Origin: an uncultured Eggerthellaceae bacterium
GTDB lineage: Bacteria > Actinomycetota > Coriobacteriia > Coriobacteriales > Eggerthellaceae
Direction of reading: 5' to 3'
DNA length: 35,303 nucleotides
NCBI GenBank assembly: GCA_903789415.1
Contig: CAIFEG010000005.1
Coordinates: 1-35,303, forward strand
Every line of letters begins with the position of its first letter. The first letter of the stretch is position 1. Made by a program: the position numbers and the translations under genes. Shown piece by piece: positions 14,590 through 22,474 of the stretch. A model generated the notes under the pieces. It searched no databases, was not told the origin of the DNA, and saw only the letters and a list, made by a program, of their open reading frames with translations.

Positions 14590-15531
14590 TCAGACCGTAT
14601 CTATTACATCAGAACTTACGACATTGTAGGGGCTAATAACGACTATTCCGCATTTGCCTATCGTAGGTGCACTTACAAAAAATGTATTATCAACAGTTCT
14701 GCCATTGGCAAGATCTTGCTCATTATCCATGGTAATCACCACGTCGATGCCCGTTTCACCTGAAGGGCCGTTTGTCTGGTTATCTGTCTGTGCTGACGTT
14801 GTGGATTGCGAAGATGAATTGCTCGAACTACTCGAATTCTGTGGTTCTGCACCGTTTGAAGTCGAAGAGATATTTTCAGATGGATCATTAGACGAATTTG
14901 TGGATGATGCCTGGTCCTGAGAAGACTGAGATTGATTCTGACCAGGATTCTGCTCGCTTTGAGCTGAGCTACTGCTTGTCGAATTCGTCCCATTGGAACT
15001 GGCTGGATTGCTGGTATTGGAATTCCTTGCGGTATTTCTGTGCGTTCTGGGTGCAGCATTTGTATCGATGTAAGAACTTTCAGGAGTGATACATACGGTG
15101 TAATCAACGTGCTGTGATTTAAGATATGAAACGTGATCTTCAATTTGCTGTTGGGTAAGGACCGTTGGAGCATAAAACACTCCTACGCGTTTGTCGCCAA
15201 CCCACACAACCATACCTTGGGTATATTTTTCTGGATGAACCAGATCAAGTTGCATGACATTGGAACTTTTTTCTATATAAGAATTTTTCACCTGTGCCAG
15301 CGATACGGGATCCTGTGCAGAAGATGCTTCATCGGTGGTAGGGATCGCAACACCATCAAAGGCAATTGTCGTATAACCTGTCATCTTACCTGCTGCATCG
15401 TCGATTCTTGTGGCGGCAACATTCCATTGGTGGCCGGCATTCATGTTGTACCAAAGGCTGCCAGCAAGTCCCCCAATAAGGACGATGATGAATGCAATGA
15501 GGGCTATTTTTTCACGTAATTTCTGGTTCAT
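14590..15531 (-). CDS. Membrane-anchored extracellular protein of unknown function
   Basis: I do not recognise this protein. From ATG at 15531 it has 313 residues: a short basic N-terminus, one membrane segment (about residues 8-28), an extracellular part to about 165 (containing GYTTIAFDGVAIP and VVWVGDKRVGVFYAP), a linker of about 85 residues built almost wholly of Ser, Asn, Gln and Thr, and a compact C-terminal region (258-313). The frame is open to 15600, but the membrane segment and a TATAAT at 15541-15546 argue for the internal ATG. It lacks an LPXTG motif or lipobox, so it is held by the N-terminal helix. It is coupled to the TauE/SafE gene, suggesting a joint role. Confidence 0.75.
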   Translation of the reverse strand: MNQKLREKIALIAFIIVLIGGLAGSLWYNMNAGHQWNVAATRIDDAAGKMTGYTTIAFDGVAIPTTDEASSAQDPVSLAQVKNSYIEKSSNVMQLDLVHPEKYTQGMVVWVGDKRVGVFYAPTVLTQQQIEDHVSYLKSQHVDYTVCITPESSYIDTNAAPRTHRNTARNSNTSNPASSNGTNSTSSSSAQSEQNPGQNQSQSSQDQASSTNSSNDPSENISSTSNGAEPQNSSSSSNSSSQSTTSAQTDNQTNGPSGETGIDVVITMDNEQDLANGRTVDNTFFVSAPTIGKCGIVVISPYNVVSSDVIDTV

Positions 15532-15540
15532 AGCTCGATT

Positions 15541-15546
15541 ATTATA
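15541..15546 (-). promoter_or_regulatory. Candidate -10 box for the surface-protein gene
   Basis: Perfect TATAAT on the minus strand ending nine bases before the ATG at 15531. The expected start of transcription is 2-3 bases before the ATG, giving a nearly leaderless mRNA; no Shine-Dalgarno sequence is present. The -35 region is poor. A short CCCTT/AAGGG hairpin overlaps the region just upstream. The remaining bases up to the uvrA stop (15547-15697) show no gene. Confidence 0.4.
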
Positions 15547-15697
15547 CCCTTGCAAAAAAGGGCAATGACGAGCGAAAACTACTGAAAAGCATAAATTCAC
15601 GTTGGGTACAAAAATTCTGCACCAATATGTAAGAAACGACGCCTCTATAAATATGGCATTGAAATAAAGAGCGTTTGATCTAATTTTGCTTGACCTG

Positions 15698-18526
15698 CTA
15701 CTTCAGCATCGGGGCAAGGAATTTTCCCGTATAGCTTGCGCTACACTGTGCTACCTCTTCTGGAGTCCCGCAGCACACGACGTTGCCTCCTTTGTCTCCT
15801 CCTTCGGGGCCAAGGTCAACAATATAATCGGCGCATTTAATCACATCTAAATTGTGCTCAATAACCAAAACCGTATTTCCGGCATCTACCAGGCGTTGCA
15901 GAACGGCAAGAAGCTGACGTATATCCTCAAAATGAAGTCCTGTGGTGGGTTCATCTAGAATATAAAATGTTTTCCCTGTTTGACGACGTTGAAGTTCACT
16001 TGAAAGTTTTACACGCTGTGCTTCCCCACCAGAAAGTGTGGTTGCTGGTTGTCCCAAGCGAATATATCCGAGCCCTACATCGTGCAATGTCTGAAGTTTG
16101 CGTTTAATGGACGGAATATGTTTAAAGAAATCAAGAGCTTCGTTGACAGTCATCTGCAAGATGTCGTACATATTCTTGCCACGATACGTAATCTGCAGGG
16201 TTTCACGGTTATAGCGCTTTCCTCCGCACACTTCGCAGGGAACATATACATCCGGTAAAAAGTTCATCTCGATCTTTTTTTGACCGTCACCCTTGCATGC
16301 TTCGCATCGACCCCCAGGGACATTAAAACTAAAGCGCCCAGGCGAATAACCTCGAGCCTTGGATTCTGGCGTGGAGGCCATGAGCTTGCGAATATCATCC
16401 CAAAGACCCACATAGGTTGCCGGATTTGAACGTGGAGTTCGGCCAATGGGGCTTTGGTCGATGTTAACTACCTTGTCGAGCTTTTGGGTTCCGAAGATGC
16501 GATCAAATTTTCCCGTTACGCGGTGTGCATGGTTGACTCGGTTTGCCAGTGCTGGCGCAAGTGAATCGGTGATCAAAGAACTTTTGCCGGATCCCGAAAC
16601 ACCGGTAATCAGAGTTAAGGTGCCAATCGGGATTTTGACCGTTATATTCTTAAGATTATTTTCTTGAGCTCCTGAAATGGTGATATAGCCTCGGTTTGGC
16701 TTTCTTCGGACTTTTGGAACTTCTATTCTTCTCTTGTGCAACAGGTATTGACCGGTAAGTGAATCTGGACACTTCATGACATCTTCCGGGGTTCCTGCAG
16801 CAACAACATAGCCTCCGTGCTCTCCTGCACCTGGCCCCATATCAATCAGATAGTCAGCATGGCGCATCGTATCTTCATCATGTTCAACGACGATGACGGT
16901 GTTTCCGAGGTCGCGTAGATGTTTAAGGGTATGGAGCAAGCGGACATTGTCACGCTGATGCAAACCAATAGAAGGTTCATCCAAAATGTAGAGAACTCCC
17001 ATCAGACCTGCACCAATCTGCGTGGTCAGACGAATTCGTTGTGCTTCACCACCAGACAGCGTCGCTGTCGCTCGGTTGAGGGTGAGATAATCAAGTCCTA
17101 CGTCCACCAGAAATTGAAGACGTGTGCGAACTTCTTTAACAATGGGTGCAGCAATGACGGCTTTTTCTCCCGTAAAATGTAGCGATTTGAAAAATTCAAG
17201 CGATTCCGCAGAACTCATTTCGCACACATCCCAAATGCTTTTGCCGTTAACGGTTACGGCAAGAATTTCGGGACGCAGGCGCTTTCCATGGCATGTTGGG
17301 CAAGGAACGATGGCAAAATATTGTTCATATTTAAGCCGGGCCTTATCAGTTTTCGCATCAGAGAGTTTGTCGCGCACCGCGGCAACGATACCATCCCATC
17401 GAATAAACCAATAGGTATCGCGACCATCCATCGTGTGATAATCCACGCGCACCTTTTCGCCACGCAAACCATACATAAGCGCCTTCTGGGCTTTTTTGCT
17501 CATCTTATTCCATGGTGTATGTTCGTCGTAGCCCAAATGCCTCGCAACGGCGCGAAGCACCTGTGGATAATAATTTCCCGTAGTAAAAGGCGCTACTGCA
17601 CCTTCCGCAAGAGAAAGATTCTTGTCAGGGACAACGAGGTCAGGATCTACCTCTTCCCTGCTTCCGATTCCTCCGCAATCAGGACACGCTCCGTAGGGAG
17701 CGTTGAAACTAAAATCACGAGGCTGGAGTTCATCGATTGAATGGCCGTGAATCGGGCATGCAAGCGCCGTGCTGTACTGATAATCTTTCGGATCGCTATC
17801 TTTAGGGAGCGTCTCTACGACAACCGACGAACCAGTCAATTTCACGGCATTTTCGACTGCCTCGGCAATTCGGTTTTGGGCTGACGGTTTTATCACGATT
17901 CGGTCAACTACAACTTCAATGGTGTGTTTGAACTTTTTGTCGAGCTTGAGGTCTTCGTCTTCAAGGCGCAGCACTTCCCCATCAACTCGCGCGCGCGTAA
18001 AACCTTCTTTGCGCAAGTCTTCGAAAAGCTTGGTGAACTCACCTTTACGTCCACGAACTACCGGTGCCAAAATGAGCGCCCGAAGATTGTCTCCGAGTTG
18101 CATGATCTTATCGGTTACCTGGTCAGTGGTTTGTTTTTCGATGACCCGACCACACTCAGGACAATGCGGAACCCCGACGCGTGCAAACAGGAGACGAAGA
18201 TAGTCGTATATTTCGGTGGAAGTACCCACTGTTGAACGAGGGTTTTTGCTTGTTGTCTTTTGGTCAATAGAAACTGCCGGAGAAAGCCCATCAATGCTAT
18301 CGACATCAGGCTTATTTGATTTGCCTAAAAACATACGTGCATAGCTTGAGAGGCTTTGAACATATCGACGTTGACCTTCGGCATAGATGGTATCGAATGC
18401 TAAGGAGCTCTTCCCAGATCCAGAAAGACCTGTAATTACCACAAGTTTGTCACGCGGTATCGTGACATCAATGTTTTTTAAATTGTGTTCGCGTGCACCT
18501 TTTATGACAATCGAATTTTGTGCCAT
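15698..18526 (-). CDS. uvrA: Excinuclease ABC subunit A
   Basis: Damage-recognition ATPase of nucleotide excision repair; loads UvrB on DNA. The 942 residues contain two ABC ATPase halves: Walker [15 protein letters not shown] (about 33-46) and [14 protein letters not shown] (second half), ABC signatures [11 protein letters not shown] and [11 protein letters not shown], and Walker B regions [15 protein letters not shown] and [15 protein letters not shown]. Zinc-binding cysteine pairs are seen at CPIHG with CPDCGG and at CEACKGDG with CEVCGGKRY. Length and domain order are normal. It lies 93 bases downstream of dapB with no terminator between, so the LexA-box-like promoter upstream of dapB may serve both (inference). 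Confidence 0.98.
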
Positions 18527-18619
18527 CTAAATTTCGAGTCCTTCGTTGCTTACGTCGTTCATCTTTTTGTTAAAGGGCCTCATTATCTGCTTTTTGGTCC
18601 CGGATCTAAATGCTTGTGC

Positions 18620-19387
18620 TTATAAATTCATGAAGTTTTCTAAGCCCACAATCAAACCGCTGCGCTCACCCACACTGCGAATACCCAGCAGTACACCAGG
18701 CATATAGCTTTCGCGATCCCACGATTCATGCTTAATGGTTAAGGTTTGCCCCATAGAGCCAAAAATGACTTCTTGGTTTGCTACAAAGCCCATTGAGCGT
18801 ACGGAATGAATCGGTACGCCATGAACAAGCGCTCCACGAGCCCCTTCGCAGCCTTCATTCTCGCTTTCCTTACCGGGCGCTTTACTATCAAAGCCACGGG
18901 ATTTCTGGATCATCGCTGCCGTTTGAACCGCGGTACCGCTTGGAGCATCCAGCTTGTCTGCATGATGGTATTCGATAATTTCGGCCTCAGGGAAATATGG
19001 AGCAGCAATTTTTGCAAATTGCATCATGAGAACCGCTCCGGTGGTAAAGTTTGGCGCCACAAAAAGGCAGGCATCATTTGTTGCGAGTTTTGCAAGACTT
19101 TCAAGTTTTTCCTGAGAAAGTCCCGTTGTGCCGATAACGCAGTTAATTCCTTGTGGAAGTGCCTTTTCAATATTTGAGGCCACAACATCAGGGCGCGTAA
19201 AATCAACAAGCACATCGAATTTCTCGTTTTTCAACGCTTCATCGAGCGATGCATATACAGGAAAATCTTGTTGTTCACTTTTTGGATCTACACCACATAC
19301 GAGATTCATATCGTCTGCTTTTTGAACTGCCCCAACCGTAGCCGTACCCATTTTGCCTGCACAGCCGCATACACAAACCTGAATCAT
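18620..19387 (-). CDS. dapB: 4-hydroxy-tetrahydrodipicolinate reductase
   Basis: NAD(P)H-dependent reductase of the diaminopimelate/lysine pathway. Seen in 255 residues: Rossmann motif GCAGKMG at 8-14, DFTRPDV, GTTGLS, APNFTTGAVLM, and the active-site EYHHADKLDAPSGTA with His141, His142 and Lys145. The ATG has AGGAGA upstream. Position downstream of an M16 peptidase and upstream of uvrA; the M16-dapB pairing is common in Gram-positive bacteria. dapA is not in the window. Confidence 0.97.
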   Translation of the reverse strand: MIQVCVCGCAGKMGTATVGAVQKADDMNLVCGVDPKSEQQDFPVYASLDEALKNEKFDVLVDFTRPDVVASNIEKALPQGINCVIGTTGLSQEKLESLAKLATNDACLFVAPNFTTGAVLMMQFAKIAAPYFPEAEIIEYHHADKLDAPSGTAVQTAAMIQKSRGFDSKAPGKESENEGCEGARGALVHGVPIHSVRSMGFVANQEVIFGSMGQTLTIKHESWDRESYMPGVLLGIRSVGERSGLIVGLENFMNL

Positions 19388-19478
19388 AATTTCTCCTGTC
19401 CAAACGTTATTGCAAACCGTTTACATACTAATTTATGCCACTCGGTACATCATGTTCTTGAGGCTCTATCCTTTTCGG

Positions 19479-19513
19479 ATCGTATCCTATGCCCGATAAT
19501 AGAACAAGTGTTC
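19479..19513 (-). promoter_or_regulatory. Putative promoter with overlapping LexA-box-like palindrome upstream of dapB-uvrA
   Basis: GAACAAGTGTTC at 19502-19513 is a perfect GAAC-N4-GTTC palindrome and fits the Gram-positive LexA core GAAC-RNRY-GTTC. On the minus strand its half TTGTTC (19507-19502) can serve as -35 box, and TACGAT (19484-19479) as -10 box, with a 17-base spacer. That would start a transcript about 85 bases before dapB. The box sequences are far from consensus, so the promoter call is tentative. No lexA gene is in the window. Confidence 0.45.
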
Positions 19514-19565
19514 GTATATTTCTACTTGATATTGTTAATGTTTACTTTGGAATTAACTCGAATAT

Positions 19566-20870
19566 TTAGTTCGACTCCAAGGCCTCATTGACGATTGACT
19601 GAGCTTTATCTTTTTCTATGGAAGAGACCAAGGCAACCGTTGGCGGTTCAAGCAAATATTCTTTCGCAATTTTTTGTACGTCATCCTGCGTTACACTGCG
19701 ATATCTTTCTACCATATCATCTGCGCAAATAAGATCATTTCCTAACGTTTGCAGACGTCCCAGGCGCAGCATGCGTGTAATCGTTGATTCTTCGCCCAAC
19801 AAGATTTGCCCACACACGCTCTCAGTAGCGCGTGAAAGTTCTTCTTCACTTACGCCATCGCGGGCGATTTTTTTGAGCTCTTCACAAACAAGACGAATCA
19901 CCTCGCCCACGTTTTCAGGACGGGTACCCGCATACACCGTGAAAATGCCCGTGTCGGAAAAGGTGACAGGGCTTGCATAAATTGAATACACCAGCCCGCG
20001 CTTCTCACGAACTTCTGTAAAAAGCCGTGAAGACATAGAGCCGCCCAATATTTGCGAAAGTGTGTAGCCCGCATAACGCCGAGGGTCGTGGACCGATAGC
20101 CATGGCATTCCTACCACTACATGTGCTTGCTGCGTATCACGGGTATCACTAACAAAAGTATGAGATGGACGAGCGTCTTGTGCGTGGCGCACCTGTTTTG
20201 TTCCTTTATTCATTTTGACAAAAAGGCGAGAACACATTTCCACCAGCTCATCGTGATCAACATGCCCTGATGCGGCAACGCATAAATTCCCCGTGTAATA
20301 ATGCTCATTTTTGTAGCGCATACAATCATTGTGATTGAAGTTTGCCACCAGGTCTTTGTCGCCAAGAACGGGCTTTCCGAGAGGATGATGGGCTAAAAGT
20401 GTTTTCGTAAATAGATCAAAAACATAATCGTCGGGCGCATCGTAGGATCGCGCAATTTCTTCGAGTACAACCTTACGTTCCGGTTCGATTGTTTCGTTTG
20501 TATAGGTGGAATTGACCAACATATCAGCCAGAATTTCAAACACGTCGGAGAGCTTTTCATCCACAAAGCGCGCATAAAAACATGTTGCTTCCTTGCCGGT
20601 AAAGGCATTTGACTCGGCACCAAGCCCATCGAATGCGCGGTTGATATCAAATGCATTCCGTGTGTTCGTGCCTTTGAATGTCATATGCTCCATAAAATGT
20701 GAAAGACCCGCTTGATCGGGTTTTTCGTCTCGGCTTCCCGTATTCATCCACAGACCAAGAGAAATACTCCGAACGTCATCCATGTGCTCGCTTACCACGG
20801 TGATACCATTATCGAGAACGGTTCGTTTGCAAAAACCGAGATCTTCTGTTGTACCTTGTTGACCAGCCAC
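19566..20870 (-). CDS. M16-family zinc metallopeptidase
   Basis: Pitrilysin/processing-peptidase family protein. From GTG at 20870 it has 434 residues, the usual length for single-gene bacterial M16B proteins. Zinc site: HFMEH (His58, Glu61 as base, His62) and a third ligand Glu about 76 residues later in ERKVVLEEIA. The second-half motif with the conserved Arg/Tyr (REKRGLVYSIYA) is also present. The frame stays open to 20996, but AAGGAG is ideally spaced for the GTG, and the longer version would run through a perfect palindrome. Family members lie next to dapB in many Gram-positive bacteria, so this is probably a housekeeping protease; a link to the divergent radical SAM gene is speculative. 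Confidence 0.9.
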   Translation of the reverse strand: MAGQQGTTEDLGFCKRTVLDNGITVVSEHMDDVRSISLGLWMNTGSRDEKPDQAGLSHFMEHMTFKGTNTRNAFDINRAFDGLGAESNAFTGKEATCFYARFVDEKLSDVFEILADMLVNSTYTNETIEPERKVVLEEIARSYDAPDDYVFDLFTKTLLAHHPLGKPVLGDKDLVANFNHNDCMRYKNEHYYTGNLCVAASGHVDHDELVEMCSRLFVKMNKGTKQVRHAQDARPSHTFVSDTRDTQQAHVVVGMPWLSVHDPRRYAGYTLSQILGGSMSSRLFTEVREKRGLVYSIYASPVTFSDTGIFTVYAGTRPENVGEVIRLVCEELKKIARDGVSEEELSRATESVCGQILLGEESTITRMLRLGRLQTLGNDLICADDMVERYRSVTQDDVQKIAKEYLLEPPTVALVSSIEKDKAQSIVNEALESN

Positions 20871-20947
20871 ATTTGCTCCTTTCAGCACGCATTCTGGGTC
20901 AAATACTTCAATCGATTCATAGAGGTATTTCAGTATTAGTTTGCACA

Positions 20948-20975
20948 TATTCTTTTCGTGAAATGGAAAAGAATA
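20948..20975. promoter_or_regulatory. Perfect 28-base palindromic site in the divergent spacer
   Basis: Arms TATTCTTTTC (20948-20957) and GAAAAGAATA (20966-20975) are exact reverse complements, separated by eight bases. The site lies 78 bases before the M16 GTG and 102 to 138 bases before the radical SAM start codons, and is not followed by a U-run on either strand. This is the form of a dimeric repressor or activator site serving one or both divergent genes. No confident -35/-10 pair could be assigned for either gene. Confidence 0.5.
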
Positions 20976-21112
20976 CAGATTGTCATCATCGATCATACAC
21001 GCAAAAATACAAAACTTTTGAATACCTTACAGATTTATTTGTTTGATTATTTCTTAAAACCGCAGGTAAAAGTAATATGAGTACAGTTACTACGAGAGAA
21101 AGAAAGGGAATA

Positions 21113-22474
21113 ATGGGACTGACCGATACAGCCAAACGTTATGGCCTTACCAAGGTTTATAAATATTTGGAAAAAAATCCTCGTGAGAACTTGCCGAAGA
21201 TCATGGACTTCGTCGACAAGGTTACTCCGGGTGACTTAATGAAATCACAGCGTGATACATTCCGCCGTGTTATTAACGATCCAGACAACAACTGGAATCA
21301 GATGCTCTGCAACTTATGGGATACGGTTGATTCCCACATCATTGAGAAGGCTTTCCAGAACTTCATTCTCAACGGAAGTTTGACCGGATGGGCTCGCCAG
21401 GAGGAAATGCGCAAAAAGTATCAGTGCAACATTCCTTGGGCTATTCTTCTGGACCCGACGAGCGCATGTAATAAGCATTGCATCGGCTGCTGGGCAGGTG
21501 AATATGGCAACAAATTAAACCTCTCATTTGATGAAATCGACAGCATCATTCAACAGGGCAAAGAGTTGGGCTGCTATGTGTACATCTACACAGGCGGTGA
21601 GCCAACGGTTCGTAAAAAGGATCTGATTGCTCTCGCAAATAAGCATAACGATTGCGAATTCTTATGCTTTACCAACGGCAGCTTGTTTGATCAGAAGTTT
21701 GTCGATGAGATTTTGCGTGTTGGCAACTTCATCCCAATCATTTCCGTTGAGGGAACGAAGGAATCCACCGATGCACGTCGTGGCGAAGGTTGCTTCGACG
21801 AGATCACCAGCACCATGGATTTGATGACCAAGAATAAGCTTGCTTGGGGCGTCAGCATTTGCTCTACTTCTCAGAATGCAGAGATTGTAACTAGTGAAGA
21901 GTACTACGATTGGATGATCGAAAAAGGCGCGAAGTTCTGCTGGTACTTCGACTATATGCCGATCGGAATGGATGCAGATCCAAGCTTGCTGGTTACTCCA
22001 AAGCAGCGTGAGCTCATGTATCACCGTGTACGTAAGTTCCGCAACGAAAAACAGCTGTTCACTTTGGACTTCTTTAACGATGGTGAATATGTAGGCGGAT
22101 GCATTGCAGGTGGTCGTCGTTATCTGCACATCAATGCAAATGGTGACGTTGATCCATGCGTATTTATTCACTACAGTGATTCAAACATTCGTGAGAAGAG
22201 CCTCTTGGATTGCCTGCGTGCGCCAATGTTTATGGCTTATCACAACAATCAGCCATTCAATGAGAACATGCTTCGTCCATGCCCTGTACTCGACAATCCT
22301 GGACGTTTGACGGCAATGGTTGAGGAGACTGGTGCTCATTCAAGTGAGATTTTGAAGCCAGAAACCGCAAAGCATTATTCAGACAAATGCGTTGATGTTT
22401 CTAAAGCGTGGAAACCTCGTGCAGATCGTCTGTGGGCTTCGAAGTACCACAACCCTGCCCTGCTGGTTAAATAA
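21113..22474 (+). CDS. Radical SAM protein with SPASM-like C-terminal cysteines, function unknown
   Basis: The radical SAM cluster motif is CNKHCIGC (CX3CX2C; Cys119, Cys123, Cys126 with this start), followed by the SAM-binding GGEP in YIYTGGEPTVRK. The C-terminal part has further cysteines in a SPASM-like layout: GGCIAGGRRYLHINANGDVDPC, then LLDC and RPCP, so auxiliary Fe-S clusters are likely. Length is 453 residues. ATG at 21113 has AAAGGGA upstream; ATG at 21077 (465 residues) is the alternative, with a weaker CAGGT. Related proteins occur in many anaerobic gut and oral bacteria without a known reaction. Codon choice is that of a well-expressed gene. It is the only plus-strand gene in a long minus-strand stretch, and no small precursor peptide gene is seen beside it. 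Confidence 0.85.
   Translation: MGLTDTAKRYGLTKVYKYLEKNPRENLPKIMDFVDKVTPGDLMKSQRDTFRRVINDPDNNWNQMLCNLWDTVDSHIIEKAFQNFILNGSLTGWARQEEMRKKYQCNIPWAILLDPTSACNKHCIGCWAGEYGNKLNLSFDEIDSIIQQGKELGCYVYIYTGGEPTVRKKDLIALANKHNDCEFLCFTNGSLFDQKFVDEILRVGNFIPIISVEGTKESTDARRGEGCFDEITSTMDLMTKNKLAWGVSICSTSQNAEIVTSEEYYDWMIEKGAKFCWYFDYMPIGMDADPSLLVTPKQRELMYHRVRKFRNEKQLFTLDFFNDGEYVGGCIAGGRRYLHINANGDVDPCVFIHYSDSNIREKSLLDCLRAPMFMAYHNNQPFNENMLRPCPVLDNPGRLTAMVEETGAHSSEILKPETAKHYSDKCVDVSKAWKPRADRLWASKYHNPALLVK

Follow-up and report, generated by a model that had tools for sequence, protein, structure and literature searches.

The LexA box of Bacillus subtilis is given as GAACN4GTTC, and LexA binding at uvrBA is described for C. 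difficile, in the same source (PMC4234289). A box search across the human gut microbiome, which kept sites for Firmicutes and Actinobacteria alone, placed uvrA among the core genes of an SOS meta-regulon, and that text names neither dapB nor Eggerthella nor Collinsella (PMC3998124). The B. subtilis-type LexA/SOS regulon resembles ours in its half-sites and their spacing, and both lexA and recA carry boxes in the genome studied here; in contrast to that regulon, our uvrA comes second after dapB, and no box was seen at uvrB, its usual partner. Among SOS targets uvrA is a standard one, and other genomes of the Eggerthellaceae have the same operator type directly before this gene, mostly at -55 to -160, whereas in our genome the box precedes dapB and uvrA follows about 0.98 kb downstream of it. 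In the open-access literature, judged by titles and the opening lines of abstracts, we found neither a paper on dapB being controlled by LexA nor a study of LexA in Eggerthellaceae or Coriobacteriia.

The locus lies in a stretch of 35,303 nt from an uncultured Eggerthellaceae bacterium, which we call the window. We consider it likely that the site upstream of dapB is a LexA operator within the promoter spacer of a dapB-uvrA operon, that LexA would repress this promoter and the SOS response would cotranscribe both genes, and that the arrangement originated from one inversion plus the gain of a box. The features are as follows.

14590..15600, minus strand: gene without assigned function, downstream of uvrA (no NCBIfam or Pfam match)
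15698..18526, minus strand: uvrA, excinuclease ABC subunit A (NF001503, 1517 bits)
18527..18619, minus strand: dapB-uvrA gap of 93 bp, presumed inversion breakpoint (LexA-like sites all at most 5.2 bits; no terminator listed)
18620..19387, minus strand: dapB, 4-hydroxy-tetrahydrodipicolinate reductase (TIGR00036, 220.5 bits against a cut-off of 122)
19479..19484, minus strand: TACGAT, an earlier -10 candidate judged not to be a promoter element (7/12 together with TTGTTC; absent from the promoter-scan list)
19496..19501, minus strand: likely -10 hexamer TATTAT (5/6, promoter scan), abutting the box
19502..19513, minus strand: putative LexA operator (SOS box) GAACACTTGTTC, an exact GAACN4GTTC (18.5 bits with a matrix of relatives' lexA boxes), like the boxes at the organism's own lexA
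19519..19524, minus strand: likely -35 hexamer TAGAAA (4/6, promoter scan), with the box wholly within the 17-base spacer
19566..20996, minus strand: M16-type peptidase upstream of dapB, YfmF/YfmH-like by family models but below those cut-offs

Read on the plus strand, the palindrome is GAACAAGTGTTC, the sole exact GAACN4GTTC in the window, which confirms the GAAC-N4-GTTC symmetry pointed out in the first-pass annotation. The bare pattern is not above chance (0.55 expected per window, at least one in 43 of 100 shuffles, and 25 sites in the whole genome versus 43 for a reversed control pattern) and was dropped as evidence by itself; therefore, a 16-base matrix was trained on 30 exact boxes from relatives' lexA promoters, with our own genome left out. 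With this matrix, the site upstream of dapB scored highest in the window, followed by a site of 10.8 bits. Taking the score of the dapB site itself, 18.5 bits, as the threshold, chance would yield 1.1e-4 sites per 178-bp spacer and 1.2 per genome under a first-order Markov model of window composition, 0.9e-4 for the 178-bp spacer in an independent-base calculation with intergenic composition, and 2.7e-4 per spacer and 2.8 per genome in a rougher simulation. This score was reached by six of the 25 exact sites in the genome, located at lexA (two sites), a DprA-like gene, a 103-aa ORF, a Y-family polymerase gene and dapB; many of the other 19 are intragenic and low-scoring. We also considered the palindrome as a terminator and rejected this, as no T run follows it and no terminator was listed there.

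A LexA context for the box is present in the same genome. The lexA gene on contig C16 (TIGR00498, E 9.2e-66, over the cut-off) encodes a protein that matches solved LexA chains across both the DNA-binding and the peptidase parts, and directly upstream it has two exact boxes of 22.0 and 18.8 bits as well as a third (15.6 bits) that departs from the pattern at one position. Exact boxes, one or two per locus, also stood upstream of lexA in 18 of the 20 full lexA loci retrieved from our genome and 19 relatives, a lexA match being missing in one of the 21 genomes searched. At recA, a box with one mismatch (16.1 bits) lies within the 16-base spacer of TTGACA-TACAAACATTTGTTCG-TATAAT. Repair-type genes provided further boxes: one of 20.2 bits at the Y-family polymerase, one of 21.5 bits between the DprA-like gene and its divergently oriented neighbour, whose MqsA/zinc-ribbon match is weak (L076:2471-2486, contig C12), and one of 17.3 bits, with weaker sites of 10.6 and 7.6 bits around the promoter, at a TIGR03916 repair radical-SAM gene (L072:2507-3952, plus strand, contig C6). 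The scan suggested in the first-pass annotation, for the same box at lexA, recA and dnaE2-type genes, came out in favour of its SOS reading: lexA is present, boxes lie at lexA, at recA and at the genes just named, and the dapB-upstream palindrome matches the predicted LexA operator type of its own organism. No LexA-like site was detected within 1.5 kb upstream of uvrB (L276, contig C18; best 1.9 bits), and the idea that uvrB is another excision gene under SOS control was rejected.

The 103-aa ORF (L079:2142-2453, minus strand, contig C13) has no Pfam or NCBIfam match and lies about 5 kb from the SOS-boxed Y-family polymerase. Its 21.3-bit box abuts a TATTAT, its promoter is among the best predicted SOS promoters of the genome, and its product is a candidate small SOS protein.

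The position of the box relative to the predicted promoter of dapB resembles that at recA. On the minus strand, 5' to 3', the match TAGAAA-TATACGAACACTTGTTC-TATTAT extends from 19524 to 19496 and agrees with the sigma-70 consensus at nine of 12 positions, and GAACACTTGTTC occupies the 3' part of its 17-base spacer, touching the -10, so that the box overlaps the core promoter as defined by this match. The string GTTC-TATTAT is common to the dapB, Y-polymerase and 103-aa-ORF promoters. Alone, TAGAAA-17-TATTAT would carry little weight, because five sigma-70-like matches were found in the scanned 1.3 kb where 2.1 (sd 1.7) were expected. An overlapping TTGTTC had earlier been proposed as the -35, with TACGAT 17 bases downstream; this pair is literally present (19507-19479, minus strand), but as a promoter it agrees with the consensus at seven of 12 positions versus nine for TAGAAA-17-TATTAT, and we rejected it as the weaker of the two. 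Of the two, TAGAAA-17-TATTAT, whose spacer holds the box, is thus the likelier promoter. The dapB ATG is at 19387, 114 bases past the box, and between 18500 and 19700, which includes the dapB leader and the gap, no riboswitch or other known RNA was matched in Rfam up to E = 1.

These observations bear on the possibility that the palindrome is a chance match unused by LexA, which we regard as very unlikely. Such an origin would agree with the 0.55 bare patterns expected per window and with the lack of conservation of the box at dapB in relatives (see below); against it, the extended score of 18.5 bits corresponds to about 1e-4 per spacer, the box sits between -35 and -10 with the -10 abutting it, as at the Y-polymerase, and a standard SOS gene belongs to the same gene pair.

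Downstream of a LexA operator at this position, dapB and uvrA could be read as one unit. Family models confirm both genes, and the earlier statement that they follow on the same strand with no terminator between them holds: the gap is 93 bp, and the minus-strand listing for 18400-19700 contains no terminator-like site. With the same strand, a short gap and no listed terminator, the pair is what would be expected of an operon. No LexA-like site above 5.2 bits was found between the two genes, and a one-mismatch GAACN4GTTC inside dapB, 311 bases before uvrA, scored below 5.2 bits. The single dapB match in the genome is the sole copy found. The nearest named uvrA found is that of Slackia (72% identity); this Slackia gene falls among the same-family rows of the uvrA tree, which points to the Eggerthellaceae as the family of our genome.

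Alternatively, the box may control dapB only, with uvrA transcribed from a separate promoter located within the gap or directly behind it and its LexA control incidental or absent. Compatible with this are two sigma-70-like matches close to where uvrA begins, TTTAGA-17-GATAAT in the gap (18610-18582, 9/12) and another at 18510-18482, as well as the presence of a box upstream of uvrA itself in many family members. However, promoter matches of this kind were near chance in the scanned region (five against 2.1), the boxes seen at relatives' uvrA were not found in the dapB-uvrA gap, and the scan listed nothing resembling a terminator on the minus strand between the genes, which are just 93 bp apart; we therefore consider separate control of dapB unlikely, and dapB riding along with uvrA in an SOS transcript as the best reading of the locus.

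The dapB-uvrA pair is new here, occurring in no other genome checked. Adjacency on one contig was seen in none of the 100 other family genomes matching both genes, with the limit that 69 of these have dapB and uvrA on different contigs, where closeness is not strictly excluded, and dapB was absent from the available flanks of 80 named uvrA loci. The usual order at relatives' dapB is a PNPase-sized gene, in some genomes the M16 peptidase, dapB, a dapA-sized gene and an RNase-J-sized gene; dapB and M16 were checked by homology in these loci, and dapA by family model in relative G025 and our own genome. The two flanking genes are presumably those for PNPase and RNase J. The PNPase-sized protein of L051 is matched over its full length on contig C19 of our genome; this match (C19:17231-19447, L201) contains one in-frame TGA, which may be a sequencing error, a frameshift or something else. 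The M16 gene was found in six of 119 family genomes, including ours, with dapB immediately downstream of it in all six, and it precedes dapB at five loci in other families of the order; it is an old neighbour of dapB. Compared with the matches in relatives, of which the full-length ones begin at residue 50-57, the M16 ORF has some 50-56 additional N-terminal residues, and its true start is probably internal. Beside it, in divergent orientation, is a radical SAM/SPASM protein of unclear family (window 21077-22474), which occupies the same place in G025 with 75% identity.

In G025, which retains the old gene order, the arrangement is M16-dapB-dapA and xer-uvrA, in agreement with the layouts of other relatives, in which dapB leads into dapA and xer into uvrA; in our genome it is M16-dapB-uvrA and xer-dapA. 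The uvrA gene of G025 stands after a XerC/D-type tyrosine recombinase gene, itself preceded by what we take to be trmFO, and look-alike ORFs were recognized by eye ahead of uvrA in several other near relatives. Our recombinase gene is 58% identical to that of G025 and is followed by dapA, on contig C41. Because the dapB/uvrA and xer/dapA junctions are reciprocal, they fit a single inversion, which we infer to be the event that produced both. Among 31 relatives with dapB and uvrA on one contig, compared by eye, the two genes face each other in 20, are on the same strand in ten and diverge in one (G082, a single contig, where on a circular molecule dapB and uvrA would point at each other across the contig ends). 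In G001, G026, G036 and G050, near relatives by uvrA identity, they face each other at 54-83 kb, and inverting the segment between them would give the arrangement seen here. On gene order across the genomes checked, the dapB-uvrA pair is thus a product of rearrangement rather than an old operon, found in our genome alone. The gene at 14590..15600 probably moved together with uvrA, since in 13 of 109 other uvrA loci tblastn placed a homologue immediately after uvrA.

An assembly artefact would also yield novel junctions, and the genome is in 49 contigs, with dapA close to the end of a contig of 8,824 bases (C41). Misassembly at the dapB-uvrA and xer-dapA joins would, however, have required two errors at corresponding points; the two reciprocal joins both lie within contigs, and a single inversion between loci oriented towards each other in near relatives would account for them. 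We regard misassembly as very unlikely, and a single inversion remains our preferred account of both junctions.

Relatives indicate where the operator is and is not found. For uvrA, we took 60 of 66 additional loci in which the start of uvrA was complete (six listed loci being omitted) together with 29 earlier ones, giving 89, and 88 after L097 was dropped for having less than 150 bp upstream; partial uvrA matches were excluded and G025 was examined apart. Many of these rows come from the same genus and are not independent. Within 250 bp upstream, a site of at least 8 bits was present in 66 of 88 and one of at least 12 bits in 39 of 88, compared with none of 86 distal controls and none of 88 reversed ones, and because of this difference we consider a LexA-like box of uvrA's own to be common in the family. 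Near our genome in the tree, the box scored 12.0 bits in G036, 10.7 in G042 and 6.6 in both G101 and G071, and G001, G055, G050, G084, G026, G113 and G025 were without a box (at most 4.1 bits). With seven near relatives lacking it, the view that SOS control of uvrA was "restored" in our lineage is not secure. The uvrA tree, which has strong support for 14 of its 30 inner branches, places G025 next to our genome (support 82/94); our genome is marked there as a long branch whose placement is unsure. A remnant of a uvrA box in our xer-dapA gap was sought and rejected (best score -5.0).

Conservation at the orthologous gene is usual, though not strictly needed, for a LexA-controlled promoter. Upstream of dapB, none of the 26 relatives examined reached 9 bits (best 8.9), and G025 has no box at either dapB or uvrA, so that the putative LexA site at dapB looks like a gain in our own lineage. 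As the genus is represented by one genome, our own draft assembly, selection on the box cannot be shown.

Taken together, the inversion would have had its ends between dapB and dapA and between the XerC/D-type recombinase gene and uvrA, placing uvrA behind the M16-dapB promoter region, which would have acquired its LexA box either earlier or later than the inversion, so that uvrA would have come, or come back, under SOS control. In an undamaged cell, LexA bound between -35 and -10 would hold the dapB-uvrA promoter down; upon DNA damage, RecA filaments would trigger LexA self-cleavage, the promoter would open, and dapB and uvrA would be transcribed together. The sole dapB found, a gene of lysine and diaminopimelate synthesis, would thereby come partly under SOS control. 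DapB is described as an essential protein in E. coli in a depletion study (PMC8822343), and given that only one dapB was found, a basal level would be required, so that the promoter would have to leak or be supplemented by read-through from M16.

It is possible, and we advance it tentatively, that one inversion rewired the SOS network in this organism, taking uvrA off its old promoter and onto that of a cell-wall gene, where a LexA operator was gained, and bringing the only dapB under damage control, with a possible link between the supply of diaminopimelate and the division arrest that damage induces. Extra diaminopimelate may be useful during SOS arrest, or dapB may be a mere passenger. If true, a global stress regulon would have been rewired through gene order, with the junctions recording the change of promoter at uvrA and the relatives recording where the operator was and was not present. 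The GAACN4GTTC SOS box would extend to the Eggerthellaceae, and LexA is predicted to repress, until DNA damage occurs, a single-copy cell-wall gene of this organism whose E. coli counterpart is essential.
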